Part shown: piece by piece, positions 1 through 51,241 of the stretch
Position numbering within the stretch: position 1 is the first letter of the stretch
Layout of the letters: the number at the start of each line of letters is the position of its first letter
Assembly (NCBI GenBank): GCA_020205615.1
Contig: CM035171.1
Coordinates: 27,823,105-27,887,104 of the forward strand
Direction of reading: 5' to 3'
Source of the DNA: Panax quinquefolius
Taxonomy: Eukaryota; Streptophyta; Magnoliopsida; Apiales; Araliaceae
Length of the DNA stretch: 64,000 nucleotides
Position numbers and translations under genes: made by a program
Notes under the pieces: generated by a model
Databases searched by the model: none
The model's input: the letters and a program-made list of their open reading frames with translations, nothing else
What the model was told of the DNA's origin: nothing

Positions 1-2
1 TT

Positions 3-776
3 CTTCCCATAGAACAATATAGCATGAGAGAAGTCATGAAACGTGTTCAAAATGTTTCTACTACTGAAAAGCCTACTACTATCCAGGACCTTAAGAGTGA
101 TATTAATATTCTGAAATCTGAAATAAAGCAATTACAGAATACTAATGTTATTATTTTCCAAGACTTAAAAAATATTAAAGAACAATTAATTCATAAACAG
201 GATAATAATATAGAATCCTCTAAGACTGAATCTTCTAATAAGCTAGAATCTTCTGAACAGTATTTAATGCTTATGAATCAAGTAGTCTTTCAAAAATGGT
301 ATATCAGAATTACTTTTGTTATTAAACCGGATTTTATTATTAAAGATGCCATTGCCCTTGTAGATAGTGGTGCTGACATGAATTGTATCCAGGAAGGGTT
401 AATTCCTACTAAATACTTCCAGAAAACCACTCAATCTTTAACCAGTGCAAGTGGAAACACTATGAATATTAAATACAAGATACCTGAAGCCTTAATCTGT
501 AATCAAGGTTTATGTTTACCTACTTCTTTTGTCCTTATCCGTAATATGAATCAAAGTATCATATTAGGCACCCCTTTCTTATGTCTTTTAATGCCTATTT
601 CAAAAATCGATACTTTAGTAATTCATACTACTCTTAACAACAAACATATTATTTTTGAATTCATAACAGAACCTTATACAAAAGAGTTAAATCAAGTTAA
701 ACACATGATTTATTCTAAAGAAAAGCAGAATAATTTTATTCAAAAAGAAATAAAATTTCTTACTACTGAAACGTAG
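3..776 (+). pseudogene. Endogenous pararetrovirus polyprotein, coiled-coil and aspartic protease part
   Basis: The frame is open from the window edge, so the methionine at 24 is not a real start and the polyprotein continues to the left. Counting from that methionine, residues 20-60 are rich in Lys, Glu, Leu and Ile and look like a coiled coil. The retropepsin active site is DSGAD at residues 114-118 (from base 363), preceded by hydrophobic residues. The second conserved protease motif, ILGTPF, is at 180-185. This is the pepsin-like protease that matures the Caulimoviridae polyprotein. The reading frame ends at the TAG at 774-776, just before the RT domain, where an intact virus would read through. 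The family is clear. A florendovirus or petuvirus affinity is inferred from domain order and from the overlapping second ORF. It is an old genomic copy, not a complete virus. Confidence 0.88.
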
Positions 777-779
777 AAT

Positions 780-1745
780 TTTACAACCTTCTTTACGGGA
801 CAAGATAAAATTGATCTACAAGACTCTTTAAATCTGAAATCAGAGTGATGTCCCAAATGCTTTCTGGAACAGGAAGAAGCATATTATTTCTCTTCCCTAT
901 GTCCCTAATTACAATGAGAAAAATATTCCTACTAAGTCTCGACCTAGTCAAATGAAAAAGGAATATTTACTTCTTTGCAAAAGCTGAAATTGAGTCCTTT
1001 AAATGAAAAAATTGATAAAACCTAGTACTTCTCCCACGAGTTGTATAGCTTTTTTATGTCAATAAAAATTCAGAAATTGAATGAGGAACTCCTAGACTCG
1101 TTATTAATTATAAACCGCTTAATGAAGCCCTTGATGGATTAGATATCCAATCCCAATAAAAAGGACCTTCTTGACAGACTTCATGATGCCACTATTTTCT
1201 CTAAATTTGACATGAAATCGAGGATTTTGGCAAATACAAATTAGAGAACAGGATACTTATAAACTCGCTTTTACGGTACCCTTTGGTCATTATGAATGGA
1301 ATGTTCTTCCATTTGGTGTCAAAATGGACCTTCGAATTCCAACATATCATGAATGATATTTTAATCCCTTTATCAATTTATTATCATTATATTGATGATG
1401 TTTTAATTTTCTCTTCATCCATGAACCAAAGATATTAAACATTTAAATATTTTCAAAAATGTTATAAAAAATGGTTTGGTAGCTTCACGCCCTAAAATGA
1501 AACTTTTCCAAACTAAAATCGATTTCTTGGACATAATATTTTCAATGGAACTATAATTCCAATTGATAGATGTATCGAATTTGCATCTAAATTTCTAGAC
1601 GAAATTAAAGGAATTAACCAACTGCAAAGATTTTTGGGAAGTCTTAATTATATTCGAGATTTTTACCCAAATCTTTCCCAAGATCTTTGCTATTATGTAT
1701 ACTAAATTCACGAAAAATCCTTTACCTTGGACTAATGAACATCTT
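780..1745 (+). pseudogene. Endogenous pararetrovirus reverse transcriptase, broken
   Basis: Reverse transcriptase blocks can be read, but only by changing frame. A block resembling FDMKS is near 1207-1222. A block reading LAFTVPFGHYEWNVLPFGV is near 1264-1320, and the catalytic YIDDVLIF is at 1388-1411. The thumb-side region with LQRFLGSLNYIRDF follows near 1621-1660. Several frame changes and stops separate these blocks, so no functional enzyme is encoded as written. The order protease, RT, RNase H without an integrase is typical of Caulimoviridae and argues against an LTR retrotransposon. This stretch occurs only in U1. Some breaks may be sequencing artefacts. Confidence 0.85.
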
Positions 1746-1749
1746 TGAA

Positions 1750-2209
1750 GCGATAATAAAATCAAAACCAAGGTTAAACAGATACCTTGTCTTTCCCTAC
1801 CTAATCCCGATTGGAAAAAGATTGTTCAAACTGATGCTTCTGACACAGGATATGGTGGGATTGTAAAACAATTTAATCATAACAGTAAAAGAGAAGATCT
1901 TGTCCGTTTTACTTCAGGAACTTGGAAAGGACCCTCTTTAAATTATCCTACTATAAAGAAGGAATGCCTTTCAATTGTTAAATGTGTTTTAAAATTTCGG
2001 GATGATCTTTTGAATCAAAGACTTTTAATCCGAGTTGATTGCTCAATTTAAAAATGATATTTAAAAAGATGTTCGAATTTAGCATCTAAATGAGATATTT
2101 GCAACTTTGGCAGAGTACTTTATCTCAGTGTTTGACTTTGATATTGAATATATCAAAGGAAAATGTAATTCTTTACCGATTTTCTAACCCGAGAATATTT
2201 GCGAGAATG
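1750..2209 (+). pseudogene. Endogenous pararetrovirus RNase H domain, broken (U1)
   Basis: The RNase H motif TDASDTGYGGI lies near 1830-1862, followed by a block with KKECLSIVKCVLKFR near 1957-2000, where the catalytic Glu is expected. The C-terminal part, which reads DFDIEYIKG near 2140-2160, is the segment repeated in U2-U8. The frame is interrupted several times. The domain ends at an ATGA (2207-2210) that joins its stop to the start of a second ORF. The position directly after the RT is as in caulimovirids. Confidence 0.82.
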
Positions 2210-2690
2210 ACTGTAGAAGCCGTGGTCATGGCCAATGTGAGGCCGAGCGAAGCTAATTTGTACTATCTGAATTCCGTCCTTAAATACTCAATCCAAAGAT
2301 TTCTTGACTTTCTTCTAGCCAACCAACGATGAAAGGATGTTCTCCTATTACCCAAACAAAGACATTCCCAACAAAAATAAGGAACAATCAAGATTGATCA
2401 TTGAATGAATGATGAGAAATGGATGAAAGATCCATGGGAGATAAAGAGACGTTATTTAACGACTCAACAGCCTCCTCCCGCTTCAATCGAAGTCGCTATG
2501 TTTATGAGCAAATTATCCTTGAAATAAGATCCATGGACATTAAGCACACGCTTTATGATCCATCAAAATCGACTAGTCCAATCCAATACAAGAAAACAAC
2601 CGTCAAGAACAACATGCATACTCGCTAATTGGGGTATTAATCCCATACTACTTACCCAACCATTGAATCTAGTCACAACAATAACAATAA
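2207..2690 (+). pseudogene. Endogenous pararetrovirus second ORF, collinear copy (U1)
   Basis: This is homologous to the plus-strand ORF at 40125-40391 plus the inverted segment at 40390-40695, but here the two halves lie in one orientation. Recognisable pieces are the block with EKWMKDPW, the block with RYVYEQIILE and the end with LANWGINP, in changing frames. I recall related uncharacterised proteins downstream of RNase H in endogenous florendovirus-like copies. No function is assigned. Viral homology stops near 2690, where the (TAA)n tract begins. Confidence 0.65.
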
Positions 2691-2717
2691 CAAGTAATAA
2701 TAATAATAATAATAAGT

Positions 2718-2764
<47 letters not shown>

Positions 2765-2808
2765 ATAATAATAATAATAATGAAGTAGTAATAGTAGTAG
2801 TAGTAGTA

Positions 2809-2879
<71 letters not shown>

Positions 2880-3146
2880 TTAATTATTTTAGTTATTATT
2901 ATTATTTAATTATTATTATTATTGTTACTATTATTTTAATTATTATAATAATAATAATTATTATTATTTTAATTATTACAATTATTATTATTATTATAAT
3001 TATTATTATAATTGTAATAATAATAATAATTATTATTATTATTACAATTATTATTATTATTACAATTATTAGTATTATTATAATTATAATAATTATTACA
3101 ATTATTACAATTATTAATTACAATTATAATATTAATTATTTCTACT
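2690..3146. repeat. (TAA)n/(TAC)n/(TTA)n microsatellite tract, U1
   Basis: About 450 bp are made only of trinucleotide runs: TAA, then TAC, TAG and TAA, then ATT with AATTAT interruptions. The second half contains many ATAATTAT-type palindromes. The long poly-Ile, Leu, Asn and Tyr reading frames across it are low-complexity artefacts. The tract directly abuts viral sequence on its left. Confidence 0.95.
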
Positions 3147-4349
3147 ACTCGCATACCCACATTATAACCTTATTTAATGTTAATGTTTATTTAAACATTT
3201 AGTTCCTTTCTCAGTTTCTAGAACACACCGATATTCAACCGTTTATGTATTACAATTACATATGAACTTATTGTACTACTTTGTAACGCCCCCAAAATTA
3301 GGTATACGTCACCCATCTTGGGTCGCCACTTACATGGTACATAAATTCAAATACAACTTACTAAAATAATCATGTGGGTATACAATCGACATAAATCTGT
3401 GAGTTTGAATACAAATTTTGTCTACTAGATATTATACAAACTCAAAAAGAGTCCTCATTACAAACTATTATCACACTATTTCATAGAATAGTGAGGACTA
3501 CTAATGCTATCCTCTGGACCATTACTTACGTTCCCAGGCTCGTCCCGGCTATGTTCTCATTTCACGAAGAAAAAGTGAAAGAAAGGGTGAGCTCAACTAG
3601 CCCAAGAAGAAATATTATGACTAAGATAATGCGTAATAAATTATCATTAGCCTTCAACAATGTTAAACCTGAAAATACAATGAACAACCCGGTTTAATCT
3701 GCGGCTTAATTAGTAATCCATTAAAAGAGTCAAGTAGAGAATAAAGTCTACTATCTTTTAGGTTTTAAAAGGTTTTCATCAATTTTTATCACGAGAGACT
3801 CAAACAATAAATAAACCACCACATCTAATCATCCTGTACCACGGGGCAAGGATTTTCATCAAATTATCAATGGTCATGACTATACCGAATCACCCCGGTC
3901 ATAATCATACCAAAAACTATCCATCATCGCATTACAGAAGCCATCGAGGACTTTTGTCACATCATTTATATCAAGTCGTGATTATACCGAATGATCCTCG
4001 TCATAATCATACTAAGTTCATCTATGCACGTAAGCCAAAGATAACATAATATAACATGAGGATGATGATAATGACATAATAATTCAATAAAACAAGTTCA
4101 AGAATTATTTAATCCATGAATTATTAACGCCCAAATTGTCAACACGACAATCTTTGTTTAAGTAAGTAAAATTCAAGAATGATCGGAAGAATATTTCCAT
4201 GAAAAGATCTTTGGATGAAACGCATATATCAAGGATATTCTACTAATTTAATGGAGTATAGAAGTCAAAGTTTTAACTTAACCGGGTATAATAAAGAATG
4301 GAATAACAAAAGAAATCACCATGCATGCGATTGCTTTGCGCCAGAACGG

Positions 4350-4622
4350 AGTTATTCAACAGAATAATAATAACGGAACCAGTGTCGTGAAATTCACCGA
4401 AGCGGGATGTTCCAATGAATAATAAAGATGGAACCCAGATCCGGTGTAAAACACACGATAGGATATTCCAACGAGAATGATAAAGACGGAACCCGAGTCC
4501 CAGGTGTAAAACACATGCATGTGATGTTCCAACAGAATAATAAAGATTTTAACCGTGTCCGATGTAAAACACATGCATGTGATGTTCCAACGAATAATAG
4601 AAGAATGTCACCAAGTATAGGG
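4350..4622. repeat. Minisatellite of about 58 bp inside the solo LTR
   Basis: Four to five imperfect copies contain GATGTTCCAA, AATAATAAAGA and GTAAAACACATGCATGTG. Successive TTCCA motifs lie near 4410, 4466, 4527 and 4585. The short frames on both strands here are by-products of the repeat. Confidence 0.8.
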
Positions 4623-4857
4623 TAAATCACAGCATATCGAGGTTATTCCAATGTAGAATAATAATGAATGGAATAATGTAAGTTCTCTTCAAGAAGAAAG
4701 AATAACACCCCTTACATAGTAAAAGAACCGAATATAGAAGTAGTGAAGTAGCGAGAATACTCTTCTTCTTTCTATAATTTTCTCTATAGCTTCTCTCTAT
4801 AATTTCTCTCTAGAGTTTCAATGAATTAAGTAAGAAAATAATGAAGGAATGAGCTTC

Positions 4858-4865
4858 TATTTATA
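4858..4865 (-). promoter_or_regulatory. LTR TATA box (minus strand)
   Basis: TATAAATA on the minus strand is followed downstream by a CT-rich, AGAGAG-containing leader. The same arrangement occurs in the related LTR at 60201-60208. It would start transcription toward lower coordinates. This is a prediction from sequence only. Confidence 0.55.
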
Positions 4866-4993
4866 GGAAAATGGAATGCATAAGAATTAATCCATGAACG
4901 GTCCGGATTGATTTACTTTAATCGTGGTCCATATTTAAAGAAAAATCTTTTAAATAAAATATAATATATTCTATTTATATAAAAACATTTTAC

Positions 4994-5090
4994 TATGCAA
5001 ACACTATGCAATACTATGCAAAACACTATGCAAAACACTATGCAATACTATGCAAAACACTATGCAAAACACTATGCAACACTATGCATA
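4994..5090. repeat. CACTATGCAAAA short tandem repeat in the solo LTR
   Basis: About nine copies of ACTATGCAAAAC or the shorter ATACTATGCA run head to tail, with 9-12 bp spacing. Confidence 0.85.
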
Positions 5091-5638
5091 ATAAAATATA
5101 ATATATTCCATTTATAGAACAACTTTAATAAAGTATTCTATTTTATATAAAAGATGTTTCGCTTTTATTACGTTAATAATACGAATAAAACAAAACGTCA
5201 TTATCGCTATAATAATTCATATTATTAATCGACAATAATGGAATCAAACCGAGTGACTTCTCACATAAACATCAATAATCAATACCGTGTACTACTATGC
5301 AACCACACGACATCGTACTTTTACTATTGAGTAGTTCAACAATAACCACTCAGTAAAACTTCCGCCGTTATTTCAATAAAATATTTTTGTCGCTTTCTCA
5401 ATCCGGCAATAATTACATTGTGGGTCCACCAATGATTGAGTAGTTGTAAGAATATTCCCCTGCTAAACCGAATATTCCCCGACCAATCGAATATAATATA
5501 ACCACTTGCATACTTTTTGCAAAATTTATAAATACTACCCACAACTATAATATTATCTTAAATTCACACCATAATATTAAAAAATTATTTCAACAAAATT
5601 TAAATCTTTATTGATAAAATCTGGGGTCTCACATACTT

Positions 5639-6260
5639 GGTACCTTATATTAACATAATGTACTCTTATCCTATGTTTTATTAATGTCACACATATAACA
5701 TTAATGTATCAATTCAATCTTTCTGAGAAATTAACCAACTTCAATCGATCATCAGGCACAAGGCTTGGCTTTATGATCTTCTTGATTAGCCAGCAATTTG
5801 TCTCAGCATACCCTTTGACAAAGGCAAGGTCAGGTTTAGCTTTAATTCAGTGTCAACTTTTATCACCATATTTGTTTTACACTTTATGACATATTCATCG
5901 TCCACATGAGTGACATTGCTAATCTAAGAGTGTGTTCATTACTTATATGAAATCACATGCTCAAACACGATTAATCTTCTTAATTCCCTTTTTAACTCGC
6001 TTAGTGAATTTCCTCATTTCACATCATGCCACACAAGGCATTCCACCATTCTCATTGTCAAATTCACACTTCTTAATACGCATTAATCTAGTGCAACTCA
6101 ATTGAATTAATCAACTTACAAAACATTAACACTTATATTCACATAAATATTATTTCCATTAATATATTTATTTAATAACACGTGGAAATTCTCGGGTATT
6201 ATAGCACACGTGGCGTCTACGTGGCAAACGTGGCATGTATGACTGCTGACGTGACGTCTG
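5639..6260. other. U1 unique block between the (TAA)n tract and the inverted-repeat element
   Basis: The block has a conserved AT-rich start, a hypervariable part at 5715-5835 that differs strongly between units, and a conserved end. No coding similarity was recognised; the short frames here are not supported. Equivalent blocks are 11486-12243, 17421-18179, 23371-24128, 29378-30132, 35343-36105, 41321-42081 and 47316-48076. Confidence 0.7.

Positions 6261-6262
<2 letters not shown>
6174..6262. promoter_or_regulatory. Cluster of ACGT-core (G-box/ABRE-like) motifs, U1
   Basis: Within about 90 bp lie ACACGTGG, ACACGTGGCG, CTACGTGGC, AACGTGGC and GACGTGACGTC. Such cores are known binding sites of plant bZIP and bHLH factors. 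The cluster recurs in every unit, for example at 18098-18180, 30048-30130, 36020-36103 and 47992-48076. No gene lies immediately downstream, so a regulatory role is only a possibility. Confidence 0.45.
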
Positions 6263-6911
<649 letters not shown>

Positions 6912-7320
6912 ATCAAACAAACATGTGAGGATAGTTTAGCTAGGTTTCAACCTAAGACCCATGAGTTTTGGGCCATCAAGCTACCACTAAGTCATTCTAA
7001 TTTATTCATTAACCAAACTCATCGCCATAACTCAGAAGCGGTGAGACAATGTAACACATGAGCAAATGAGGGGCAAATGAGTAATTTCTCATTCTCATGT
7101 CGCCACAACAGTGGCGGGGAGGAAATCTTTTTCAATCCGTGACATCTAATGTTGCGATCAACGATATAGATTATGGTTGTTGAAATAGTACCGTGACAAC
7201 CGATTACAAGCGTGTTAGTTCCGCCTCCCACCCAAATAAAACCAATCTTATCAAACTGATTATTATATCTATGTTTCCCAATTTTCCTATTTCTAGATAG
7301 AAGTAGGATATACTTACAAG
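6912..7320. other. U1 block between the inverted-repeat element and the MITE
   Basis: This contains the tRNA-like relic described at 12892-12956, here with the B box reduced to GGTTTCAACC on the plus strand. About 350 bp of unrecognised sequence follow, including a stretch GCGATCAACGATATAGATTA that is nearly constant in all units. A 103-codon minus-strand frame (7019-7330) does not persist in the other units, so I do not call it a gene. Confidence 0.6.
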
Positions 7321-7322
7321 TA

Positions 7323-7590
7323 CTCCTCACTCCAGAAAATGAAAGTGATGATTGATTTTATGCGAAATTAAAAAATGTCAAATGATAAAATTATTCATAT
7401 TTAAATTCTCATCTAATTGCATATTTTTATATACATGGCTAGTGATATTATATAAATAATAAAAATATGACATTTAATACTAAGGATATTACACACAAAT
7501 TATTATAAAAAAATAGATTATTTAATATAAGTAAATATTTAACTTGAGATTACATAAAATAATAAGAACTTTTATTCTTAGGCGGAGGAG
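7323..7590. mobile_element. Stowaway-like MITE, U1
   Basis: The element starts CTCCTCACTCC and ends GGCGGAGGAG, close to the Stowaway inverted terminus CTCCCTCCGT. It is flanked by the dinucleotide TA on both sides (7321-7322, 7591-7592). It is 268 bp long, AT-rich and non-coding, as expected for a non-autonomous Tc1/mariner derivative. Confidence 0.85.
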
Positions 7591-7592
7591 TA

Positions 7593-8360
7593 ACTTAAAT
7601 CATGAACATATATTTTATGTCCGTAAACAAAACATAAAAATAAGAATAGTAATGGTATACCACTAGCTATTTCTAGTTCACCTTTAACCTTTTTCTAAAT
7701 ATATTTTAAAATTAAATTATAATACTATCAGGTTTTAAGATAAAACATAAAAGATGAAAGAAAAAATTTATTATGTTTTATGAACTAGAATAGAATAAAG
7801 TTATTTAAAAATAACTTTTAAGTCATTCTTAATAAGTTAGTTTGACCCCATATTAATGTAATATTAATTTTATCCCTATTTTATTTTAATTTTTTAAAAA
7901 TGAAATATTAAGATAAAACGTCACTTTAATTGGTGTTAGAATTTTATTTTTATTTTTTATAGTCAAATCTTATATACTCCTTCATTTTCAACAATCAATG
8001 ATAGAGAATAAACATAAAAAAATATTAATATTTGTAAACAAGTACAAGATATCAAAAAAATAAAAAAAAAGAGATTCCTACGTTAATTAAAGTGATGTTA
8101 CATCTTACTATTTTTATAAATTTGCTTTATAAAAAATTTTAAAAAATTACAAAAAATGTTTATTTCCCACGAAACCAATTCTATCTAATAAACCTTCCTT
8201 TTACTTCGTCATCTCCTTGCCCTCTCTCTCTCTCTCTCTCTCTCTTCTTTCAACAACTCGTATAAAAAAAACCCTTCCTTAATGATGAGATCCGACGACA
8301 ACTCCTTCAACTCCTAGAAGTAGATCGGTGCATCGGACTTCATAGTAGAGATTGTAGCGG
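7593..8360 (+). other. AT-rich sequence upstream of the MinD fragment, with a (CT)n tract
   Basis: About 600 bp of AT-rich DNA are followed by a CT dinucleotide run (8221-8244) and a short segment leading into the MinD-like sequence. CT-rich tracts are common in plant 5' leaders. The block may therefore be captured MinD promoter and leader DNA, but this is inference. Equivalents are 13555-14329, 19476-20242, 25456-26229, 31435-32210, 37418-38180, 43368-44144 and 49393-50160. Confidence 0.5.
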
Positions 8361-8875
8361 CAAAACTCACCGGCAAAACACCAAGAGTCGTGGTCATTAC
8401 CTCCCAAGAAAGCGATGTTGGCAAAACCACTACCACCGCCAACATCGCCTTTCCTCGCTTCGCCATGCTTCTCCATCGTCGCCATCGACGTCGGCGACGC
8501 CTACCCCGCAACCTCGACCTCCTCATTGACTCGAAAACGCGTCAACTACACTCGTTGAAGTCCTCAACGATGATTGCCGCCAACAAGCCCTAGTTCGCCA
8601 CAAACATTTTTCCAACTTCAATTACTCTTTATTTCCAAGCCCCATCTAAACTCCCAATTGGGTTTGGTGGAAAAGCCCTAGTTTGGCTAATGGGCCTTTA
8701 AAAGACCTCCAAGAGGGCTCCCCGATTTCATTTTAATCGATTACACGGCTAGGATTGATGCCGGGTTCATAACGGTAATCACAATGCCGTGAATGAGGCT
8801 ATTTTGGTAACAACGCTTGACATCACGGCATCAAGTGATGCCGATGAGGTTACTGAGCTTCTAAGAATGCTTCAG
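8361..8875 (+). pseudogene. MinD fragment, U1
   Basis: This corresponds to the N-terminal ATPase half of plant chloroplast MinD, as described for the copy at 44145-44667. The P-loop region is disturbed (TCCCAAGAAAGCGATG instead of the cleaner TCCGGCAAAGGCGATG). The blocks for LPIGFGGKALVWL and PDFILIDY are readable only after frame changes. Confidence 0.85.
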
Positions 8876-9020
8876 TTTAAAGGTAAGGCATCGACCAACT
8901 CGGATCATTTATGTTGTTTGTCGTAACTCATTAATTTATTGTGGATGTCCCATTGAAACAAAGTAATGAGTTTTCTCGTCCACATTACTCGTATTATATT
9001 TGAGTTTAGTTCTTCTTTGC

Positions 9021-9198
9021 AAATGTAAAATTGTCATTTTATTGTTGGAATGTGTGGACCACCCAGTGCAATAATTTGTGGTTAGAGCTCATATGTTAGA
9101 GAGTGGGATTACGCGAGATTTAGGCAGATTTTGATAAGTGCTTGGTATTGTTTTGATGTGTGACATGGATCAAATTAGTGGTCTTATAGCAAAGAAAG
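9021..9198 (+). pseudogene. Serine hydroxymethyltransferase exon fragment, U1
   Basis: Degraded copy of the exon described at 50831-51002. The acceptor-side TTGCAG is altered to TTTGCAAATG. The blocks for [12 protein letters not shown] and [10 protein letters not shown] can be traced. The donor-side GTGAAATATTC follows at 9199. Confidence 0.75.
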
Positions 9199-9459
9199 GT
9201 GAAATATTCATGTTTAAACTGAAAAGAATTTGTGCTTTAGCTTGTTTACGCATGTCTTGCTTGAAATTTAATTTCTTTTGTTAACCTTATGAATAATCTA
9301 TTAGTTTTGTGTTAGCTATGGTTTATAATTTGAGAATCAAAGTAGTACAATCGTAAACAACTATAAAATAAAAAAATGAGAATCAAGATGCGCTTTGTTG
9401 GAAAAGTCGACTAGATGAATGTGTGGAATCATTGATTTACGATTATTTTGGGTTTCATG
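9199..9459 (+). other. Intron-like sequence after the SHMT fragment, U1
   Basis: The sequence is AT/T-rich, starts with GTGAAATATTC at the predicted splice donor, and is nearly identical in all units. It is probably captured SHMT intron. No other feature is seen. Confidence 0.5.
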
Positions 9460-10078
9460 TTAGGACATTGATATCGGGTCCTCCAATATCTAAACCATTC
9501 ATTTCAACAATGGCTTTCCAATAGTCGACTTTAGTAGTGAAGTATTCTGATTATTTTTAATAAGTACAAGCTTGACATCGATCCTTAATGTAATTATCGT
9601 CCAGATTCGTAATAGATTTCGCCAAGTCTTCCTCCGCATTTGATTCTAATCACCTTGGATAAATAATTAAGAATTTTTGTTGAATGTCTTCTTGAAGGAC
9701 ATTTCATTCGGTTCTGTTTCAATTTTGATTTACATTTATTAGCAAAATGTCATGGGTTTACCACATTTATAACACTGGACTTTAGATTTATCTTTTTTAC
9801 TATTGTTCCTTCTTTTCTTAGTGGTTTTTTCAGGGGTTTTGTTCTTAGATTTCTTAGAAGAACGCGTCTTGATGGTATAGAGTGCTTCAAATCATTATTT
9901 TTAGCCTTATTGGGATACTGTAATTTTGTATCATAAGAGAATTGGTCACAAAATTCTCTTATCTCATGTCTTTTAGTGAAATTCTGTTGTTTCATTAATT
10001 GTTGGAGTTTCATATCATTAGGACATTGATACTGGGTCCTCCAATATCTAAACCATTCATTTCAACAATGGCTTTTCA
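9460..10078 (-). pseudogene. Pararetrovirus coat-protein fragment (minus strand), U1
   Basis: Same segment as described at 45249-45875: a Lys-rich basic stretch, then a zinc knuckle on the minus strand. The N-terminal block reads MKLQQLMKQQNFTKR and is followed by EFCDQFSYDTKL. A copy of about 66 bp (GGTCCTCCAATATCTAAACC and flanks) lies at both ends, 9460-9526 and 10016-10078. Confidence 0.75.
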
Positions 10079-10575
10079 ATTATTAAATGTGTTTTAAAAT
10101 TTTAGGATGATCTTTTGAATCAAGACTTTTAATCCGAAGTTGATTGCTTCACCGCAAAAAAGAGATATTTAAAAAGATGTTCGTAATTTAGCATCTAAAA
10201 TGATATTTGCAACTCAAGTGCGAGTACTTTATCCAGATTTGACTTTGATATTGAATATATCAAAGGAAAATGAAATTCTTTACCGATTTTCTAACCCGAG
10301 AATATTTTCGTGAATGACCAAGAGAATCATGGCATGCAATGTCGGGCCGAAAATGAGCTAATTTATACTATACAGAATTCCCGTCATTAAATACTCAATC
10401 CAACATTTCTTCGGCTTCTTCTAGCCATCTAACAGTAAAGGATGTTCTCCTATTACCCGAACAGTACATTCCCAACAAAAATACGGAAGAAACAGTATTG
10501 ATCATTGAACAGAATGATGAGAAATGGATGAAAGATCCATGGGAGATAAAGAGACGTTATTTAACGACTGTCGGG
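10076..10575 (+). pseudogene. Pararetrovirus RNase H end plus ORF2 start, U2
   Basis: Equivalent to 39889-40391. The RNase H part is scrambled at nearly every CAG/CTG site. From about 10375 the sequence is almost identical to U7, including LTVKDVLLLPEQY and NKNTEETVLIIEQN. The ATGA overlap is at 10314-10317. The left palindrome arm is 10459-10569. Confidence 0.8.
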
Positions 10576-10886: not shown

Positions 10887-10961
10887 CTTGCTTCAAAAAG
10901 AAATAAAATTTCTTACTTCTGTAATGTAGAATTTTACAACCTTCTTTACTGAACAAGATAA

Positions 10962-11029
<68 letters not shown>

Positions 11030-11041
11030 TAACAATAATAC

Positions 11042-40695: not shown

Positions 40696-40769
40696 TACTG
40701 TTTCAAAAAGAAATAAAATTTCTTACTACAGAACAGAGAATTTTACAACCTTCTTTACAGAACAAGATA
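40696..40769 (+). pseudogene. Pararetrovirus protease/RT linker stub, U7
   Basis: About 70 bp are homologous to 741-810 of U1, the end of the protease region. The stub is fused to the palindrome on its left and runs straight into the (TAA)n tract on its right. It occurs in U2-U8. Confidence 0.75.
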
Positions 40770-41320
<551 letters not shown>

Positions 41321-42081
41321 TTTCTACTACTCGCATACCCACATTATAACCTTATTTAATGTTAATGTTTATTTAAACATTTAGTTCCTTTCTCAGTTTC
41401 TAGAACACACCGATATTCAACCGTTTATGTATTACAATTACATATGAACTTATTGTACTACTTGGTACCTTATATTAACATAATGTACTCTTATCCTATG
41501 TTTTATTAATGTCACACATATAACATTAATGTATCAATTCAGAGTCTTCTGATGAAATTAACCAACTTCAATCGATCATTTGGTGCAAGCAATGCTACTT
41601 GATTTATCTTCTTTCTTCAAATGCATTGTCTTGCACCCTTTACTGATGCAAGTTTGGTTTTAGCTTTAATTCAAAGGTCAACTTTTATCACCATATTTGT
41701 TTTACATGACATGTATTACTGTCCACATGAGTGACATTGCTAATCTAAGAGTGTGTTCATTACTTATATGAAATCACATGCTCAAACACGATTAATCTTC
41801 TTAATTCCCTTTTTAACTCGCTTAGTGAATTTCCTCATTTCACATCATGCCACACAAGGCATTCCACCATTCTCATTGTCAAATTCAAACTTCTTAATAC
41901 GCATTAATCTAGTGCAACTCAATTGAATTAATCAACTTACAAAACATTAACACTTATATTCACATAAATATTATTTCCATTAATATATTTATTTAATAAC
42001 ACGTGGAAATTCTCGGGTATTATAGCACACGTGGCGTCTACGTGGCACACGTTAATATGTATATTCTTGACGTGATCGTCA

Positions 42082-42386
42082 TTAAATTTTTCAAAAATTG
42101 TTTTTGCAAAGATTTGAACTCACAACCTCACATTTGGAATTTTGGTCATACGATTGCTGATGCAACACGAATCAACTATTAATATCTTGCAAGGATTAAT
42201 ATTTATTTCAAAACATGATATTTCCCCAATATATTCCTTTCTTCTCCTTTAAATAACTAAATGTACATGAAAGTCTTGAGATACATACATAAATGTACAT
42301 AACTAATTGAGTGATAATAATGATAATAATAATTATAATAATAATATTGTTATTGTTATTATTATTATTATTATTATTAGTAGTAC

Positions 42387-42458
<72 letters not shown>

Positions 42459-42682
42459 CATAATTATTTATGGTATGTAGTGAATGAGAATAAAGGAATA
42501 TATGGAAAAAATCTCATGTTTTGATATAAATATTAATCATTGCAAAATATTAACAGTTGATCCATATTACTTTAGCGGTATATGACCAAAATTTCAAATG
42601 TGAGGTTCTCGAAGTTCAAATATGTGCAAAAGGCAATTTTGGAAAAATTTAATCAACATAAACAATTTTTGGAAAAATTTAA
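42082..42682. repeat. Inverted-repeat element around (TTA)n, U7
   Basis: Arms are about 42082-42230 and 42500-42682; the centre is at 42312-42460. Confidence 0.65.
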
Positions 42683-43095
42683 TCAAACAAACATGTGAGG
42701 GATAGTTTAGCTAGGTTTCGAACCTAAGACCTATGAGTTTTTGGGCCATCAAGCTACCACTAAGTCATTCTAATTTATTCGTTAACCAAACTACTGCCAT
42801 AACTTGTAGCGGTAGACAATGTAACACATGAGCAAATGAGGGGCAAATGAGTAATTTCTCATGTCGCTACAGTCTGTAGCGGCAGGAGGAAATCTTTTTC
42901 AATCCGTGACATCTAATGTTGCGATCAACGATATAGATTATGGTTGTTGAAATAGTACCCGTGACAACCGATTGCCAAGCATGTTAGTTCCGGGCCTCCG
43001 ACCCAAATAAAACCAATCTTATCAAACCTGATTATTATATCTATGTTTCCCAATGTTTCCTATTTCTAGATAGAAGTAGGATATACTTACAAGTA

Positions 43096-43365
43096 CTCCT
43101 CAATCTCAAAAATGAAAGTGATGATTGATTTTATGCGAAATTAAAAAATGTCAAATGATAAAATTATTCATATTTAAATTCTCATCTAATTGCATATTTT
43201 TATATACATGGCTAGTGATATTATTATAAATAATTAAAATATGACATTTAATACTAAGGATATTACACACAAATTATTATAAAAAAATAGATTATTTAAT
43301 ATAAGTAAATATTTAACTTGAGATTACATAAAATAATAAGAAATTTTATTCTTAGACGGAGGGAG
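43096..43365. mobile_element. Stowaway-like MITE, U7
   Basis: Starts CTCCTCAATCTC, ends ACGGAGGGAG, flanked by TA (43094-43095, 43366-43367). Confidence 0.85.
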
Positions 43366-44144
43366 TAACTTAAATCATGAACATATTTTTAAGTCCAGAA
43401 ACAAAACATAAAAATAAGAATAGTAATGGTATACCCCTAGCTATTTCTAGTTCACCTTTAACCTTTTTTCTAAATATATTATAAAATTAAATTATAATAC
43501 TATCGGTTTTAAGATAAAACATAAAAGATGAAGAAAAATTTATTATGTTTTATGAACTAGAATGTAATAAAGTTATTTAAAAATAACTTTTAAGTCATTC
43601 TTAATAAGTTAGTTTGATCCCATATTAATGTAATATTAATTTTATCCTATTTTATTTTAATTTTTATTAAAATGAAATATTAAGATAAAACGTCACTTTA
43701 ATTGGTGTTAGAATTTTTATTTTTATTTTTTTTATAGCTGAAATCTTATATACTCCTTCATTTTCAACACCGATGATAGAGAATAAACATAAAAAAATAT
43801 TAATATTTGTAAACAAGTACAAGATATCAAAAAAATAAAAAAAAAAGAGATTCCTACGTTAATTAAAGTGATGTTACATCTTACTCTTTTTTATAAATTT
43901 GCTTTATAAAAAATTTTTAAAAAAAATTACAAAAAAATGTTTATTTCCCACGAAACCAATTCTATCGGAATAAACCTTCCTTTTACTTCGTCATCTCCTT
44001 GCCCTCACTCTCTCTCTCTCTCCCTCTTCTTTCAACAACTGTATAAAAAAAAACCCTTCTCCTTAACAGTAGATCCGACGACAACTCCCTTCAACTCCCT
44101 AGAAGTAGATCGGTGGCTGGACTTCATAGTAGTAGATTGTAGCG

Positions 44145-44667
44145 GCGAAACTCACTGGCAAAACACCAAGAGTCGTGGTCATTACCTCCGGCAAAGGCGA
44201 TGTTGGCAAAACCACTACCACCGCCAACATCAGCCTTTCCCTCGCCCGCCTTGGCTTCTCCATCGTCGCCATTGACGTCGGCGCCGACCTCCATGACCTT
44301 GACCTCCTCATTGGACTCGAAAACCGCGTCAACTACACTCGTTGAAGTCCTCAACGATGATTGCCGCCTTGAACAAGCCCTAGTTCGCCACAAACATTTT
44401 TCCAACTTCGAATTACTCTTTATTTCCAAGCCCCGATCTAAACTCCCAATTGGGTTTGGTGGAAAAGCCCTAGTTTGGCTAATGGACGCCTTAAAAGACC
44501 TCCAAGAGGGCTCCCCTGATTTCATTTTAATCGATTACCTGGTTAGGATTGATGCTTTGGGTTCATAACGGCAATCACACCGGCGAATGAGGCTATTTTG
44601 GTAACAACGCCAGACATTACGGCATTGCGTGATGCTGACAGGGTTACAGGCTTCTAAGAATGCTTCA
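44145..44667 (+). pseudogene. MinD (chloroplast septum-site ATPase) fragment, U7, reference copy
   Basis: Plant MinD is a plastid-targeted, nuclear-encoded ATPase that positions the chloroplast division ring. This fragment begins just before [10 protein letters not shown], has the deviant Walker [12 protein letters not shown] (GKGGVGKT is expected) and the block [16 protein letters not shown]. After ENRVNYT a 2-base deletion, shared by all units, shifts the frame. MinD resumes as [29 protein letters not shown] and SPDFILIDYLVRID. Homology ends soon after DITALRD, so the dimerisation and C-terminal membrane-targeting parts are absent. Several changes from the expected sequence are C-to-T or G-to-A, as with deaminated methylcytosine. 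The minus-strand frames here are shadows. It is not a working gene. Confidence 0.92.
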
Positions 44668-44814
44668 GGTTAAAGGTAAGGCATTGACCAACTCTGGATC
44701 ATTTGCGTTGTTTGTCAGAACTCATTAATTTATTGTGGATGTCCCATTGAAACAAAGTAATGAGTTTTCTCGTCACATTACTCGTATTATATTTGAGTTT
44801 AGTTCTTCTTGCAG

Positions 44815-44989
44815 CGAAAATTGTCATTTTATTGGTTGGAATGTGTGGACCACCCAGGCAATAATTTGTGGTTAGAGCTCATATGTTAGAGAGTGGGATT
44901 ACGCGAGATTTAGACAGATTATTTGATAAGTCTTGTACTTTGTTTTGATGTGTGACATGGATCAAATTAGTGGTCTTATAGCAGCAAAG
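44815..44989 (+). pseudogene. Serine hydroxymethyltransferase exon fragment, U7
   Basis: Clean acceptor [18 protein letters not shown] and REWDYARF blocks intact; the DKCGA segment altered; [14 protein letters not shown] intact to the donor GTGAAA. Confidence 0.8.
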
Positions 44990-45248
44990 GTGAAATATTC
45001 ATGTTTAAACTGAAAAGAATTTGTGCTTTAGCTTGTTTACGCATGTCTTGCTTGAAATTTAATTTCTTTTGTTAACCTTATGAATAATCTATTAGTTTTG
45101 TGTTAGCTATGGTTTATAATTTGAGAATCAGAAAGTAGTACAATTGTAAACAACTATAAAATAAAAAAATGAGAATCAAGATGCGCTTTGTTGGAAAATC
45201 ACTAGATGAATGTGTGGAATCATTGATTTACGATTATTTTGGGTTTCA

Positions 45249-45875
45249 TTAGGACATTGATCTTTGGGTCCTCCAATATCTAAACCATTCATTTCAACAA
45301 TGGCTTTCCAATAGTCAGCTTTAGTAGTCGTATTACAGTTATTTTTAATAGTACAAGCTTGACATTGATCCTTATGAAATTATTATCGTCGATTCGAGAA
45401 TAGATTTCTGCCAAGTCTTCCTCTGCACTTGATTCTGAATCACTGCTGGATAAATAATTAAGAATTTTTTGTTGAATGTCTTCTTCAAGGGACATTTCAT
45501 TCAGTTTCTGTTTCAATTTTGATTTACATTTATTAGCAAAATGTCATGGTTTACCACATTTATAACACTGGACTTTAGATTTATCTTTTTTACTATTGTT
45601 CCTTCTTTTCTTAGTGGTTTTTTCAGGGGTTTTGTTCTTAGATTTCTTAGAAGAACGTCTTCGGTAAGGTATAGAGTGCTTCGAAATCTGTTATTTTTTA
45701 GCCTTATTGGGATACTGTAATTTTGTATCATAAGAGAATTGGTCACAAAATTCTCTTATCTCATGTCTTTTAGTGAAATTCTGTTGTTTCATTAATTGTT
45801 GGAGTTTCATATCATTAGGACATTGATACTGGGTCCTCCAATATCTAAACCATTCATTTCAACAATGGCTTTTCA
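45249..45875 (-). pseudogene. Pararetrovirus coat-protein fragment with zinc knuckle (minus strand), U7, reference copy
   Basis: Read on the minus strand: a block with MKLQQLMKQQN-like and EFCDQFSYDTKL sequence, then a Lys/Arg-rich stretch, then the retroviral-type zinc knuckle C-X2-C-X4-H-X4-C at 45526-45567. An in-frame TGA sits at 45544-45546, just before the His. Downstream is a Ser/Asp/Glu-rich acidic region (SSSDSESSAEEDLAEIY) with a frame open from 45516 to 45289. A Lys-rich basic region plus zinc knuckle is the hallmark of caulimovirid coat proteins. The flanking 66-bp direct repeats are at 45249-45314 and 45816-45875. Nothing upstream of the block is recognisable. Confidence 0.82.
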
Positions 45876-46365
45876 ATTATTAAATGTGTTTTAAAATTTT
45901 AGGATGATCTTTTGAATCAGCACTTTTTAATCCGAGTTGATTGCTCAGCTGCAAAACAGATATTTAAAAAAGATGTTCAGAATTTAGCATCTAAACAGAT
46001 ATTTGCAACCTGGCAGAGTACTTTATCCGTATTTGACTTTGATATTGAATATATCAAAGGAAAACAGAATTCTTTACCAGATTTTCTAACCCGAGAATAT
46101 TTTCGTGGAGTGACCAAGAGAATCAAGTGGCGGCAAATGAGGTAGGCCGAGAAACTAATTTATACTATCTGAAATTCCGTCATTAAATACTCAATCCAAG
46201 ATTTCTTGACTTCTTCTAGCCATCTAACAATGAAGGATGTTCTCTATTACCCTAACGAAGACATTCCCAACAAAAATACGGAAGAAACAATTGATCATTG
46301 AATGAATGATGAGAAATGGATGAAAGATCCATGGGAGATAAAGAGACGTTATTTAACGATCGTTC
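45873..46365 (+). pseudogene. Pararetrovirus RNase H end plus ORF2 start, U8
   Basis: RNase H frame open at 45912-46145, identical to U7 up to the REYF block. The ATGA overlap and the Arg/Gly-rich ORF2 start are altered after 46105. The left palindrome arm is about 46254-46365. Confidence 0.83.
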
Positions 46366-46372
46366 GGGTAGT

Positions 46373-46680
46373 ATGGGGATTAATACCCCAATTAGCAAGA
46401 GGCATGATGCTCTTGACGGTTGTTTTACCAGATTGGATTGGACTAGGCGATTTTGATGGATCATGAAGCGTGTGCTTAATGTCCATGGATCTTTATTTTC
46501 AAGGATAATTTGCTCATAAACATAAGCGATCTTGATTGAAGCAGGGAGGAGACTGTTGAGTCGTTAAATAACGTCTCTTTATCTCCCATGGATCTTTCAT
46601 CCATTTCTCATTATTACATTCGATGATCAATCTTTGCTTTCTTCCGTATTTTTGTTGAGAATGTCTTTGTTCGATGATCA
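46373..46680 (-). pseudogene. Pararetrovirus ORF2 piece, inverted, U8
   Basis: Minus-strand ORF2 segment, with right arm 46559-46672 altered at several sites. A protease/RT stub follows to 46757. Confidence 0.72.
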
Positions 46681-46757
46681 ATCTCTTGTTTCAAAAAGAA
46701 ATAAAATTTCTTCTTCTGAACGTAGAATTTTACAACCTTCTTTACTGAGCAAGATAA

Positions 46758-47315
<558 letters not shown>

Positions 47316-48076
47316 TCTACTACTTTCGCATACCCACATTATAACCTTATTTAATGTTAATGTTTATTTAAACATTTAGTTCCTTTCTCAGTTTCTAGAA
47401 CACACCGATATTCAACCGTTTATGTATTACAATTACATATGAACTTATTGTACTACTTGGTACCTTATATTAACATAATGTACTCTTATCCTATGTTTTA
47501 TTAATGTCACACATATAACATTAATGTATCAATTCAATCTTCTGATGAAAATTAACCAACTTCAATCGATCATCAAGTGTAACATTGCCATTGATTTGTC
47601 TCTTCTTGAGACTGACCTTGCATCTTGCATACCACTCTGATGCGAAGGTCAAGGTTTAGCTTTAATTCAGTGTCAACTTTTATCACCATATTTTTTTTAC
47701 ATGACATGTATTACTGTCCACATGAGTGACATTGCTAATCTAAGAGTGTGTTCATTACTTATATGAAATCACATGCTCAAACACGATTAATCTTCTTAAT
47801 TCCCTTTTTAACTCGCTTAGTGAATTTCCTCATTTCACATCATGCCACACAAGGCATTCCACCATTCTCATTGTCAAATTCACACTTCTTAATACGCATT
47901 AATCTAGTGCAACTCAATTGAATTAATCAACTTACAAAACATTAACACTTATATTCACATAAATATTATTTCCATTAATATATTTATTTAATAACACGTG
48001 GAAATTCTCGGGTATTATAGCACACGTGGCGTCTACGTGGCACACGTGGCATGTATGATCACGCGACGTGACGTCA

Positions 48077-48411
48077 TTAAATTTTTTCAAAAATTGTTTT
48101 TGCAAAGATTTGAACTCATGACCTCACATTTGGAATTTTGGTCATATGATTCTTGATGCAACATACGAATCAACTATTAATATCTTGCAAGGATTAATAT
48201 TTATTTCAAAACATGATATTTCCCCAATATATTCCTTTTCTTCTCCTTCAAATAACTAAATGTACATGAAAGTCTTGAGATACATACATAAATGTACATA
48301 ACTAATTGAGTGATAATAATGATAATAATAATTATAATAATAATATTGTTATTGTTATTGTTATTGTTATTGTTATTGTTATTATTATTATTAGTAGTAC
48401 TATTATTATTA

Positions 48412-48483
<72 letters not shown>

Positions 48484-48708
48484 CGCAATTATTTATGGTA
48501 TGTAGTGAATGAGAATAAAGGAATATATGGAAAAATCTCATGTTTTGATATAAATATTAATCATTGCAAAATATTAACAATTGATCCATATTACTTTAGC
48601 GGTTATATGACCAAAATTTCAAATGTGAGGTTCTTCGAAATCAAATATGTGCAAAGGCAATTTTTTGGAAAAATTTAATCAACATAGGCAATTTTTGGAA
48701 AAATTTAA
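48077..48708. repeat. Inverted-repeat element around (TTA)n, U8
   Basis: Arms are about 48077-48230 and 48530-48708. The centre, 48312-48483, has six TTG/TTA alternations at its left end. Confidence 0.65.
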
Positions 48709-49123
48709 TCAAACAAACATGTGAGGGATAGTTTAGCTAGGTTTCGAACCTAAGACCTATGAGTTTTTGGGCCATCAAGCTACCACTAAGTCATTCTAAT
48801 TTATTAGTTAACCAAACTACCGCCATAACTTGTAGCGGTAGACAATGTAACACATGAGCAAATGAGGGCAAATGAGTAATTTCTCGTGTAAGCTACAAAT
48901 CTGAAGTGGTGAGGAGGAAATCTTTTTCAATCCGTGACATCTAATGTTGGGATCAACGATATAGATTATGGTTGTTGAAATAGTACCCGTGACAACCGAT
49001 TGCCAAGCATGTTAGTTCCGGGCCTCCGACCCAAATAAAACCAATCTCATCAAACCTGATTAATATATCTATGTTTCCCAATGTTTCCTATTTCTAGATA
49101 GAAGTAGGATATACTTACAAGTA

Positions 49124-49390
49124 CTCCCTCACTCTGAAAATGAAAGTAATGATTGATTTTATGCGAAATTAAAAAATGTCAAATGATAAAATTATTCATA
49201 TTTAAATTCTCATCTAATTGCATATTTTTTATATACATGGCTAGTGATATTATATAAATAATAAAATATGACATTTAATACTAAGGATATTACGCACAAA
49301 TTATTATAAAAAATAGATTATTTAATATAAGTAAATATTTAACTTGAGATTACATAAAATAATAAGAACTTTTATTCTTAGGCGGAGGAG
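49124..49390. mobile_element. Stowaway-like MITE, U8
   Basis: Starts CTCCCTCACTCTG, ends GGCGGAGGAG, flanked by TA (49122-49123, 49391-49392). Confidence 0.87.
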
Positions 49391-50160
49391 TAACTTAAAT
49401 CATGAACATATTTTTAAGTCCGAAAACAAAACATAAAAAGAAGAATAGTAATGGTATACCCTAGCTATTTCTAGTTCTCCTTTAACCTTTTTTCTAAATA
49501 TATTATAAAATTAAATTATAATCTTATCGGTTTTAAGATAAAACATAAAAGATGAAGAAAAATTTATTATGTTTTATGAACTAGAAAGAATAAAGTTATT
49601 TAAAAATAACTTTTAAGTCATTCTTAATAAGTTAGTTTGACCCCATATTAATGTAATATTAATTTTATCCTATTTTATTTAATTTTTTTAAAAAAAATGA
49701 AATATTAAGATAAAACGTCACTTTAATTGGTGTTAGAATTTTTATTTTTTTTTTTTATAGTGATATCTTATATACTCCTTCATTTTCAACATCGATGATA
49801 GAGAATAAACATAAAAAAATATTAATATTTGTAAACAAGTACAAGATATCAAAAAAATAAAAAAAAAGAGTATCCTACGTTAATTAAAGTGATGTTACAT
49901 CTTACTCTTTTTTTATAAATTTGCTTTATAAAAAAATTTTAAAAAAAAATTACAAAAAAATGTTTATTTCCCACGAAACCAATTCTATCGGAATAAACCC
50001 TCCTTTTACTTCGTCATTTCCTTGCCCTCACTCACTCTCTCTCTCTCTCTCTCCCTCTCCTTTCAACAGCTGTATAGAAAAAAACCCTTCTCCTTAACAG
50101 TAGATCCGACGACAACTCCCTTAGATCGGTGGCTGGACTTCATAGTAGTAGATCGTAGCG

Positions 50161-50683
50161 GCGAAACTCACTGGCAAAACACCAAGAGTCGTGGTCATTA
50201 CCTCCGGCAAAGGCGATGTTGGCAAAACCACTACCACCGCCAACATCAGCCTTTCCCTCGCCCGCCTTGGCTTCTCCATCGTCGCCATTGACGTCGACGT
50301 CGGCCTCCGCAACCTCGAACTCCTTATTGGACTCGAAAATCGCGTCAACTACACTCGTTGAAGTCCTCAACGATGATTGCCGCCTTGAACAAGCCCTAGT
50401 TCGCCACAAACGTTTTTCCAACTTCGAATTACTCTTTATTTCCAAGCCCCGATCCAAACTCCCAATTGGGTTTGGTGGAAAAGCCCTAGTTTGGCTAGTG
50501 GACGCCTTAAAAGACCTCCAAGAGGCCTCCCCTGATTTCATTTTAACGATTACTTGGCTAGGATTGATGCTGGGTTCATAACGGCAATCACACCGGCGAA
50601 TGAGGCTGTTTTGGTAACAACGCCAGACATTACTGACATTAAGCGTGATCTTGATAGGTTTCTGAGCTTCTAAGAATGCTTCA
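50161..50683 (+). pseudogene. MinD fragment, U8
   Basis: Clean Walker A ([14 protein letters not shown]), [19 protein letters not shown] and, after the shared frameshift, FSNFELLFISKPRSKLPIGF. It carries point differences not seen in the other units (Arg for His in RHKRFSNF, Ala for Gly in LQEASPD). There is one frameshift near 50548. Confidence 0.9.
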
Positions 50684-50830
50684 GGTTAAAGGTAAGGCAT
50701 TGACCAACTCTGGATCATTTGCGTTGTTTGTCAGAACTCATTAATTTATTGTGGATGTCCCATTGAAACAAAGTAATGAGTTTTCTAGTCACATTACTCG
50801 TATTATATTTGAGTTTAGTTCTTCTTGCAG

Positions 50831-51002
50831 CGAAAATTGTCATTTTATTGGTTGGAATGTGTGGACCACCCAGGCAATAATTTGTGGTCGGAGCTCATAT
50901 GTTAGAGAGTGGGATTATGCGAGATTTAGACAGATTGCTGATAAGTGCGGCGCTGTTTTGATGTGTGACATGGATTAAATTAGTGGTCTTATAGTAGCTA
51001 AG
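50831..51002 (+). pseudogene. Serine hydroxymethyltransferase exon fragment, U8, reference copy
   Basis: SHMT is the PLP enzyme that interconverts serine and glycine with folate. The exon lies between an acceptor TTCTTGCAG and a donor AAG/GTGAAA. One open frame gives [20 protein letters not shown], then [16 protein letters not shown]. This matches the conserved SHMT segment that normally ends MAHISGLVAA. In the other units it reads [11 protein letters not shown]; here a TAA replaces the Gln codon. The substitution of Ala-His by Asp-Gln removes a conserved histidine. The PLP lysine would lie in a later exon and is absent. The type with ICGGSSYPREWDY is, from memory, closest to plant SHM6/SHM7. 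Confidence 0.87.
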
Positions 51003-51241
51003 GTGAAATATTCATGTTTAAACTGAAAAGAATTTGTGCTTTAGCTTGTTTACGCATGTCTTGCTTGAAATTTAATTTCTTTTGTTAACCTTATGAATAA
51101 TCTATTAGTTTTGTGTTAGCTATGGTTTATAATTTGAGAATCTGAAAGTAGTACACTGTAAACAACTATAAAATAAAAAAAATGAGAATCAAGATGTAAT
51201 TTGTTGGAAAAGTCACTAGATGAATGTGTGGAATCATTGAT
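51003..51241 (+). other. Intron-like sequence after the SHMT fragment, end of array
   Basis: Same sequence as after the other SHMT fragments, up to GGAATCATTGAT, where array homology stops. The coat-protein fragment that follows in U1-U7 is missing here. Confidence 0.6.

Follow-up and report, generated by a model that had tools for sequence, protein, structure and literature searches.

The window analysed here is a stretch of 64,000 nucleotides of the Panax quinquefolius genome (C21:27823105-27887104; coordinates below are window positions), and it carries between 2677 and 51241 a head-to-tail array, delimited by word spacing, self-BLAST and unit mapping, in which the order within each copy is a palindrome of (AAT)n/(ATT)n, a core containing fragments of the host genes MinD and SHMT, and a mosaic of viral pieces (Table 1; unit features are quoted for copy 3, the reference copy). 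The array contains eight palindromes, eight cores and seven mosaics, copy 8 having no viral part according to both unit mapping and the mosaic probe. The starts of copies 2-8 are spaced by 5947-5996 bp, and copy 1 is longer (8281 bp) because of a 2352-bp insert. Repetition by chance is excluded, and the self-match of 5634-45227 to 11624-51241 reaches 93.2% identity over 40,336 alignment columns. When the plant's own assembly (3.565 Gb, 821 contigs) was probed, matches within the array numbered eight for each of the element/MinD, SHMT-side and MinD probes and seven for the viral mosaic; match counts from all genome probes are lower bounds. Every first-look candidate of the MinD and SHMT-side probes was scored (32/32 and 35/35), and a tandem arrangement was seen only at the present array. 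The copy number given here is that of the assembly.

A model reading the letters alone (the original prediction) had described an eightfold head-to-tail array of a unit of about 6 kb starting at base 1. The eight cores and their spacing agree with this, and the self-comparison that it had proposed, run here as self-BLAST, bears out the head-to-tail repetition, but the limits had to be corrected, as the array begins at 2677 and 1-2651 is a separate, longer colinear viral piece sharing parts with the mosaics; moreover, copy 1 departs from the unit length and copy 8 from the composition. Most of the components that it had listed were recovered: pararetroviral fragments (Pfam RVP and RT_RNaseH_2 on the related left piece, with mosaics at the joins), the MinD piece (Pfam CbiA), the SHMT piece (via a paralogue on C13), an inverted-repeat element (the foldback found by unit mapping) and long microsatellites (Tandem Repeats Finder, TRF).

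Table 1. Features of the window and of the repeat unit
Feature	Position	Strand	Evidence or remark
Colinear endogenous caulimovirid piece (left flank), not an array unit	1-2651	+	Pfam, self-BLAST
Left flank, protease	3-773
Left flank, reverse transcriptase (RT) pieces	~838-1700
Left flank, RNase H	1749-2048 and onward
Palindrome 1, (AAT)n/(ATT)n, left limit of array	2677-3140		464 bp; TRF
Core 1, carries insert	3141-9436	+	self-BLAST, unit mapping
Insert private to copy 1	3282-5633		2352 bp; self-BLAST
Mosaic 1	9437-10957
Palindrome 2	10958-11485		TRF
Core 2	11486-15394	+	self-BLAST, unit mapping
Mosaic 2	15395-16907
Palindrome 3	16908-17420		TRF
Core 3 (reference)	17421-21321	+	self-BLAST, unit mapping
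Core 3, start	17421-18166
Core 3, foldback element with microsatellite loop	18167-18762		self inverted match 18180-18764, 75%
Core 3, truncated copy of dispersed high-copy element	18820-20038	+	loci comparison
Core 3, MinD gene fragment, broken	20233-20729	+	Pfam CbiA, E 3.9e-12 (first piece)
Core 3, SHMT gene fragment, exon and non-coding flanks	20745-21321	+	C13 paralogue, 89%
Mosaic 3	21322-22854
Mosaic 3, filler	21322-21332
Mosaic 3, coat-region piece	21333-21914	antisense	label read from translation; no Pfam match
Mosaic 3, second short piece	~21910-21973	antisense
Mosaic 3, RNase H piece	21964-22466	+
Mosaic 3, viral inverted repeat	22413-22720		54-nt arms, 98%, 200-nt loop
Mosaic 3, inverted tail	22474-22768
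Mosaic 3, protease/RT-junction piece	22783-22854		runs into palindrome
Palindrome 4	22855-23371		DNA fold, z -16.8
Core 4	23372-27312	+	self-BLAST, unit mapping
Mosaic 4	27313-28850
Palindrome 5	28851-29375		TRF
Core 5	29376-33288	+	self-BLAST, unit mapping
Mosaic 5	33289-34813
Palindrome 6	34814-35344		TRF
Core 6	35345-39257	+	self-BLAST, unit mapping
Mosaic 6	39258-40766
Palindrome 7	40767-41321		TRF
Core 7	41322-45227	+	self-BLAST, unit mapping
Mosaic 7	45228-46752
Palindrome 8	46753-47314		TRF
Core 8, no mosaic after	47315-51241	+	unit mapping, mosaic probe
Ancestral right flank	51242-51250	+	nine bases common to C13 and C6 paralogues

The core and its relatives elsewhere in the genome

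The host part of the unit has a relative on C13, which is 86% identical over 19085-20729 and in which the segments 18819-20729 and 20745-21321 follow each other in the same order and on the same strand. Relative to the array core, C13 has an additional ~1.1 kb inside the element, and the join between MinD and SHMT in the core corresponds to a loss of ~1.45 kb. No viral match was found in the 8.7 kb examined at C13 when these were compared with copy 3 up to 23160 and with 1-5633. Outside the array, five loci carry a MinD match and an SHMT-side match on one and the same strand: C13, C24, C17, C6 at 78.42 Mb and C21 at 30.45 Mb, the last four with the two matches at most ~3 kb apart. As the host chimera lies at C13 with no viral match in the stretch examined, assembly of the host part need not have involved the virus, and the proposal in the original prediction of a virus-centred rearrangement that captured host DNA is not supported.

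A text search for SHMT motifs in the array found none, and the segment was identified instead through the C13 paralogue, whose exon matches SHMT chains in the PDB (best E 1.6e-17, the listing giving the name of the molecule and not the organism); the SHMT label of the array is carried over from this relative. The dispersed element gave a match in all 12 fetched loci (82.6-86.4% identity), 11 of which reach 20029 or beyond, 40 of the 1946 first-look candidates of the element/MinD probe having been scored. The stretch previously taken for a separate Stowaway miniature inverted-repeat transposable element (MITE) lies inside this larger element (18820-20038), and no matching MITE termini were present among 14 inverted pairs of at least 14 nt, a length at which shorter, decayed termini escape detection; a separate MITE was thus not confirmed. 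Stretches related to the foldback also occur at three dispersed loci (L017, L022, and L023).

Another tandem array, independent of this one and built of units of ~6.4 kb, lies at C20:38765225-38788677 (L009-L012). It has only the dispersed element (18904-19771) in common with the array described here, a common cause for the two being rejected on this ground, and no viral match was found in it, which also speaks against a virus-centred origin.

Viral sequences and palindromes

The left flank shows caulimovirid-type protease, RT, and RNase H in the expected order. Two Pfam models score above the cut-off (RVP, 3.5e-8; RT_RNaseH_2, 1.2e-22) and two below it (RVT_1, 0.0097; the caulimovirid protease model Peptidase_A3B, 0.0048). 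Its first ~1400 positions are 90.6-95.2% identical to nine of 13 fetched dispersed copies, and a tenth matches the left flank at 91.8% over 849 bp; the remaining three gave no match of at least 120 bp to the left flank. The closest protein relative of the protease piece (89% identical) is filed under a bacterial metagenome bin, and the closest under a plant name reaches 61% (Camellia). The viral protein relatives P0001 and P0024 (89% and 84%) are assigned to metagenome bins of Chryseobacterium and Flavobacterium, and these records most likely represent plant DNA that was binned with bacteria. The protease piece was folded (predicted local distance difference test score 76.3), and in a search of BFVD with this model 16 of the first 19 rows were proteins that we take to be caulimovirid, with identities of 13-18%, too low for placing the virus in a genus, Florendovirus or other. 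Of ranks 5, 6, and 16, one was an unnamed entry (21%) and the other two were giant viruses; retroviruses appeared from rank 20. Searched by sequence against the PDB, the protease piece produced seven weak matches (best 0.046), none of them named as a retroviral-type protease.

The mosaics are 1509-1538 bp long, about a quarter of the ~5960-bp unit, and no copy holds a whole virus. All seven match copy 3 nearly end to end over 21343-22466, and when they are compared with the left piece their last three segments agree; this single build indicates that the mosaic arose once. The joints in the copy 3 mosaic show short overlaps that are visible by eye. The genome-wide search with the viral-mosaic probe gave 972 first-look candidates, of which 40 were scored, and this places the coat-region piece in a family of many copies. 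In the 13 fetched dispersed loci no single match crossed the joint near 21964 to reach the RNase H piece, a weak negative since these loci had been cut around the coat region. Between 1900 and 2700 the left piece contains no inverted repeat of at least 40 nt, so the idea that its end had been flipped was discarded; its sequence continues past 2462, and the mosaic is therefore the rearranged version.

The viral inverted repeat is made by the RNase H piece and the inverted tail that follows, and it has longer imperfect arms at 22353-22466 and 22667-22775. The predicted RNA fold of copy 3 over 22340-22790 has a score of -202.3, compared with -107.3 (standard deviation, sd, 6.21) for shuffled sequences (z -15.3). 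The palindromes, of 464-562 bp across the eight copies, are also foldable, palindrome 4 (stretch 22855-23372) reaching -110.3 as DNA against -62.71 (sd 2.84) for 100 shuffles.

Ends of the array and later insertions

Copy 8 ends at 51241, precisely where copies 1-7 turn viral after ~11 bases of filler (as measured in copy 3), and it continues for nine bases into sequence shared with the paralogues, the stretch 50667-51250 being 94.9% identical to C13 and 94.0% to C6. Furthermore, among the 27 matches that the SHMT-side probe gave outside the array, 7 stop exactly at the endpoint of copy 8 (query base 521). A restoration of the nine ancestral bases by chance is unlikely.

The insert private to copy 1 has TG...CA ends and is bordered by a 5-bp duplication, TACTT, at 3277-3281 and 5634-5638. 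Its longest stop-free piece is 100 aa, and it looks like a solo long terminal repeat (LTR). Relatives of parts of it (75-80%) lie no more than 10 kb beyond the right end of the window (L014, 2686-5245 and 9651-9999).

To the right of the array are retroelement-like direct repeats, 51252-51791/55412-55948 and 51788-52675/61387-62279. They look like one 1.4-kb LTR pair, the right member of which is split by a 5.4-kb insert, and the 5' end of the pair does not start in TG. The stretches 61182-61246 and 61360-61400, close to where the nested insert ends, hold a tandem repeat of 14 bp (TGAATAGTAACTCG, 4.7 copies) and motifs resembling TTTAGGG. Neither C13 nor C6 gave a match in 62261-64000.

Divergence between copies

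The apparent divergence between copies is 4.2-7.7% (MAFFT distances), but it falls to 0.2-1% at clean columns, defined as those with four invariant neighbours on each side, and a real divergence of 4-8% was therefore rejected. Only 29 of 1636 clean columns are variable; copies 1-7 differ there by 0.18-0.49% among themselves, and copy 8 stands apart from them at 0.79-0.98%. In the stretch covered by C13, 11 isolated clean sites are private to copy 8, C13 agreeing with copy 8 at five and with the other copies at six, from which it follows that copies 1-7 share derived changes. Clean sites common to exactly two copies join neighbours in six of nine cases (P 0.013, a small count made after the fact). 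Fixed clean differences from C13 amount to 6.9% in the element/MinD segment and 3.4% in the SHMT-side segment, so that the former is truly more diverged from C13.

The differences between copies are concentrated at CAG/CTG and CG sites. Compared with C13, 25 of 36 CAG/CTG columns of the SHMT-side segment are variable, against 46 of 524 other columns (CG columns, 9/16), and in the element/MinD segment 35 of 60 against 231 of 1510 (CG columns, 21/52). The same excess is seen in units 1-7 compared with their own majority (96/123 vs 847/5039), in the C20 array (93/228 vs 666/5965) and in ten viral protease/RT pieces (71/84 vs 230/1284), where real deamination in dispersed viral pieces could also contribute. 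The 12 SHMT-side CAG/CTG sites give 96 cells, of which 31 are unchanged, 34 show a length change, 18 several substitutions, 11 one other substitution and 2 a single C>T or G>A. For the 20 element/MinD sites (160 cells) the corresponding numbers are 20, 37, 53, 31 and 19. Deamination of methylated C as the main cause was rejected because of the low number of single C>T or G>A changes in both segments. In control triplets, 441 of 624 SHMT-side cells and 644 of 1304 element/MinD cells are unchanged, with 37 and 100 length changes. The observed/expected ratios of CAG and CTG in the array (0.62 and 0.57) show a modest shortage; other stretches have 0.60-1.14 and the presumed solo LTR 0.50 and 0.47.

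Nanopore consensus errors are expected at CHG-methylated sites, and much of the 4-8% divergence looks like such error. A literature search for nanopore errors at CHG sites and methylation-linked consensus errors gave no paper for citing, the part of PMC8514461 available to us dealing with methylation calling. Reading frames in the array are unreliable and frameshifts in it uninformative. The C13 CAG/CTG triplets kept by copies 1 to 8 are 4, 1, 6, 6, 9, 14, 16, and 17 of 32, a left-to-right rise that could be caused by polishing, coverage or a methylation gradient. The low divergence at clean columns makes the array seem young and, with a substitution rate of ~7e-9 per site and year, its age would be, very roughly, a few hundred thousand years.

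Discussion

With moderate confidence, we favour an origin of the array by local tandem amplification in which the join was sealed with viral filler, followed by stepwise unequal exchange. At the initial site, a core with the foldback, the truncated dispersed element and the MinD and SHMT fragments already joined would have had a long palindrome of (AAT)n/(ATT)n beside it and caulimovirid DNA on its left. The palindrome stands at the left of every copy and would be a natural break site; repair of a break near it would have joined the right end of the core (21321) back to the left side by way of five or more short segments from that same virus family, which were copied or ligated where short overlaps occurred, to give a core-mosaic-palindrome-core arrangement. 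Unequal exchange between the ~6-kb repeats would then have produced eight cores and seven mosaics, the rightmost core keeping the ancestral flank, and an LTR-like element would have entered copy 1 while retroelements occupied the right flank. The numbers of cores and mosaics, the ancestral flank after copy 8 and the single build of the mosaic fit a filled tandem duplication followed by unequal exchange, and the slight excess of changes shared by neighbours fits unequal exchange as well. Geering et al. (2014; PMC4241990) proposed that caulimovirid DNA serves as filler at breaks in TA repeats, and a review restates this idea and reports frequent caulimovirid tandem arrays and multicopy rearrangements (PMC10377300).

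Some points weigh against this origin. The repeat of the array is AAT/ATT and not the TA repeat of the published bias, and the branching of the copies rests on those 29 variable clean columns. Moreover, with differences from the mosaics at 8 of 206 and 3 of 120 clean columns, the left piece is further from them than copy 8 is from the other copies. The mosaic therefore does not simply descend from this piece, and the filler would have come from another copy or an older state. Finally, retroelements disturb the right flank, and copy 8 might, although this is unlikely, have lost a viral part.

A different possibility, which we regard as unlikely but the best placed of the alternatives, is that the virus came first. 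A ready-made caulimovirid mosaic would have integrated beside the core, unequal exchange multiplying both together, and copy 8 would have lost its mosaic or would derive from an allele that never had one. Caulimovirid insertions are often rearranged, according to the parts of PMC526188 and PMC10377300 available to us, and the coat-region piece belongs to a many-copy family, both of which agree with this possibility. However, excision would not restore the nine C13/C6 flank bases past the copy 8 junction, and a virus-free allele is an extra assumption.

It is quite improbable that the copy number is an assembly artefact, a shorter array having been expanded or a longer one collapsed by error-prone long reads. 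The heavy consensus differences at CAG/CTG sites and the shift in kept triplets across the copies are what error-prone reads might leave, but copy 1 has its private insert, copy 8 its 11 isolated substitutions, the palindromes differ in length and the flanks are distinct on both sides. The insert, the copy 8 differences and the right end of copy 8 also make it unlikely that a single unit was multiplied by the assembly. A slightly poorer prospect still is single-step amplification, with an extrachromosomal or rolling circle reinserting several copies together, since, although the distances among copies 1-7 are close to equal, the sharing of clean changes between neighbours is somewhat above expectation, copy 8 is distinct and the array ends in place in ancestral flank instead of at a circle join at a new site. 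Viral pieces do lie at the joins between copies. Of the two routes named in the original prediction, unequal crossing-over fits the slight excess of sharing between neighbours, and rolling-circle amplification is not retained as the main route.

Among the titles and abstract openings that we searched, nothing had the composition of this array, and its parts recall several known systems. As in the florendovirus filler of PMC4241990 and PMC10377300, the viral pieces are rearranged, overlap briefly where they meet and lie against a foldable AT-rich repeat, and they belong to a family that has many genomic copies and is probably silent. Unlike that filler, they sit where the copies of a host tandem duplication are joined and have been amplified along with it, and the repeat is (AAT)n/(ATT)n and not made of TA dinucleotides, although the array may function in a similar way to that system. 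The endogenous concatemers of petunia vein clearing virus, as described in the accessible text of PMC10377300, are likewise head-to-tail arrays including viral sequence, but there the virus itself is the repeat unit, while here viral scrap makes up about a quarter of it. Plant satellites derived from mobile elements (PMC7004042, in its available part) are also tandem repeats of mobile-element sequence enlarged in place; the present array differs in having only eight copies, all at one site, and a unit pieced together out of viral DNA, fragments of genes and further elements. In terms of satellite DNA, the copies are head-to-tail, but they do not form long genome-wide high-copy arrays. Long-unit satellites occur in potato and on rye B chromosomes.

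In tomato, rearranged caulimovirids in inverted-repeat form give 22-nt small interfering RNAs (siRNAs; Valli et al. 2023, reported in the consulted part of PMC10377300). Similarly, the mosaic contains a hairpin-capable viral inverted repeat, here repeated seven times, although, unlike in that case, the hairpin is known from sequence folding. The predicted hairpin may have a small-RNA role. It seems to us highly improbable that the amplification turned it into a heritable small-RNA locus present in seven doses, in which each copy could yield double-stranded RNA of the RNase H end of the virus, the MinD and SHMT fragments in the repeat could add small RNAs against those host genes, and the array would persist since a virus family is silenced by its dosage. 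More probably, the array is silent repeat DNA, methylated at CHG sites and lacking a function of its own; it resembles a relic of repeated break repair more than an active gene or virus.

Two consequences can be drawn. First, consensus error at sites that plants methylate can account for most of the divergence within repeat arrays of plants, and ages and pseudogene calls from such assemblies therefore need checking. The error pattern in both the present and the C20 array suggests a nanopore-based assembly of CHG-methylated repeats, and genes and frames in the repeats of such an assembly deserve caution. Second, if the origin that we favour is true, the array catches one birth route of a long-unit tandem repeat, in which a break at an AT-rich palindrome would be repaired with viral filler, the product duplicated and the array enlarged by exchange, with the outermost copy still at its original flank.

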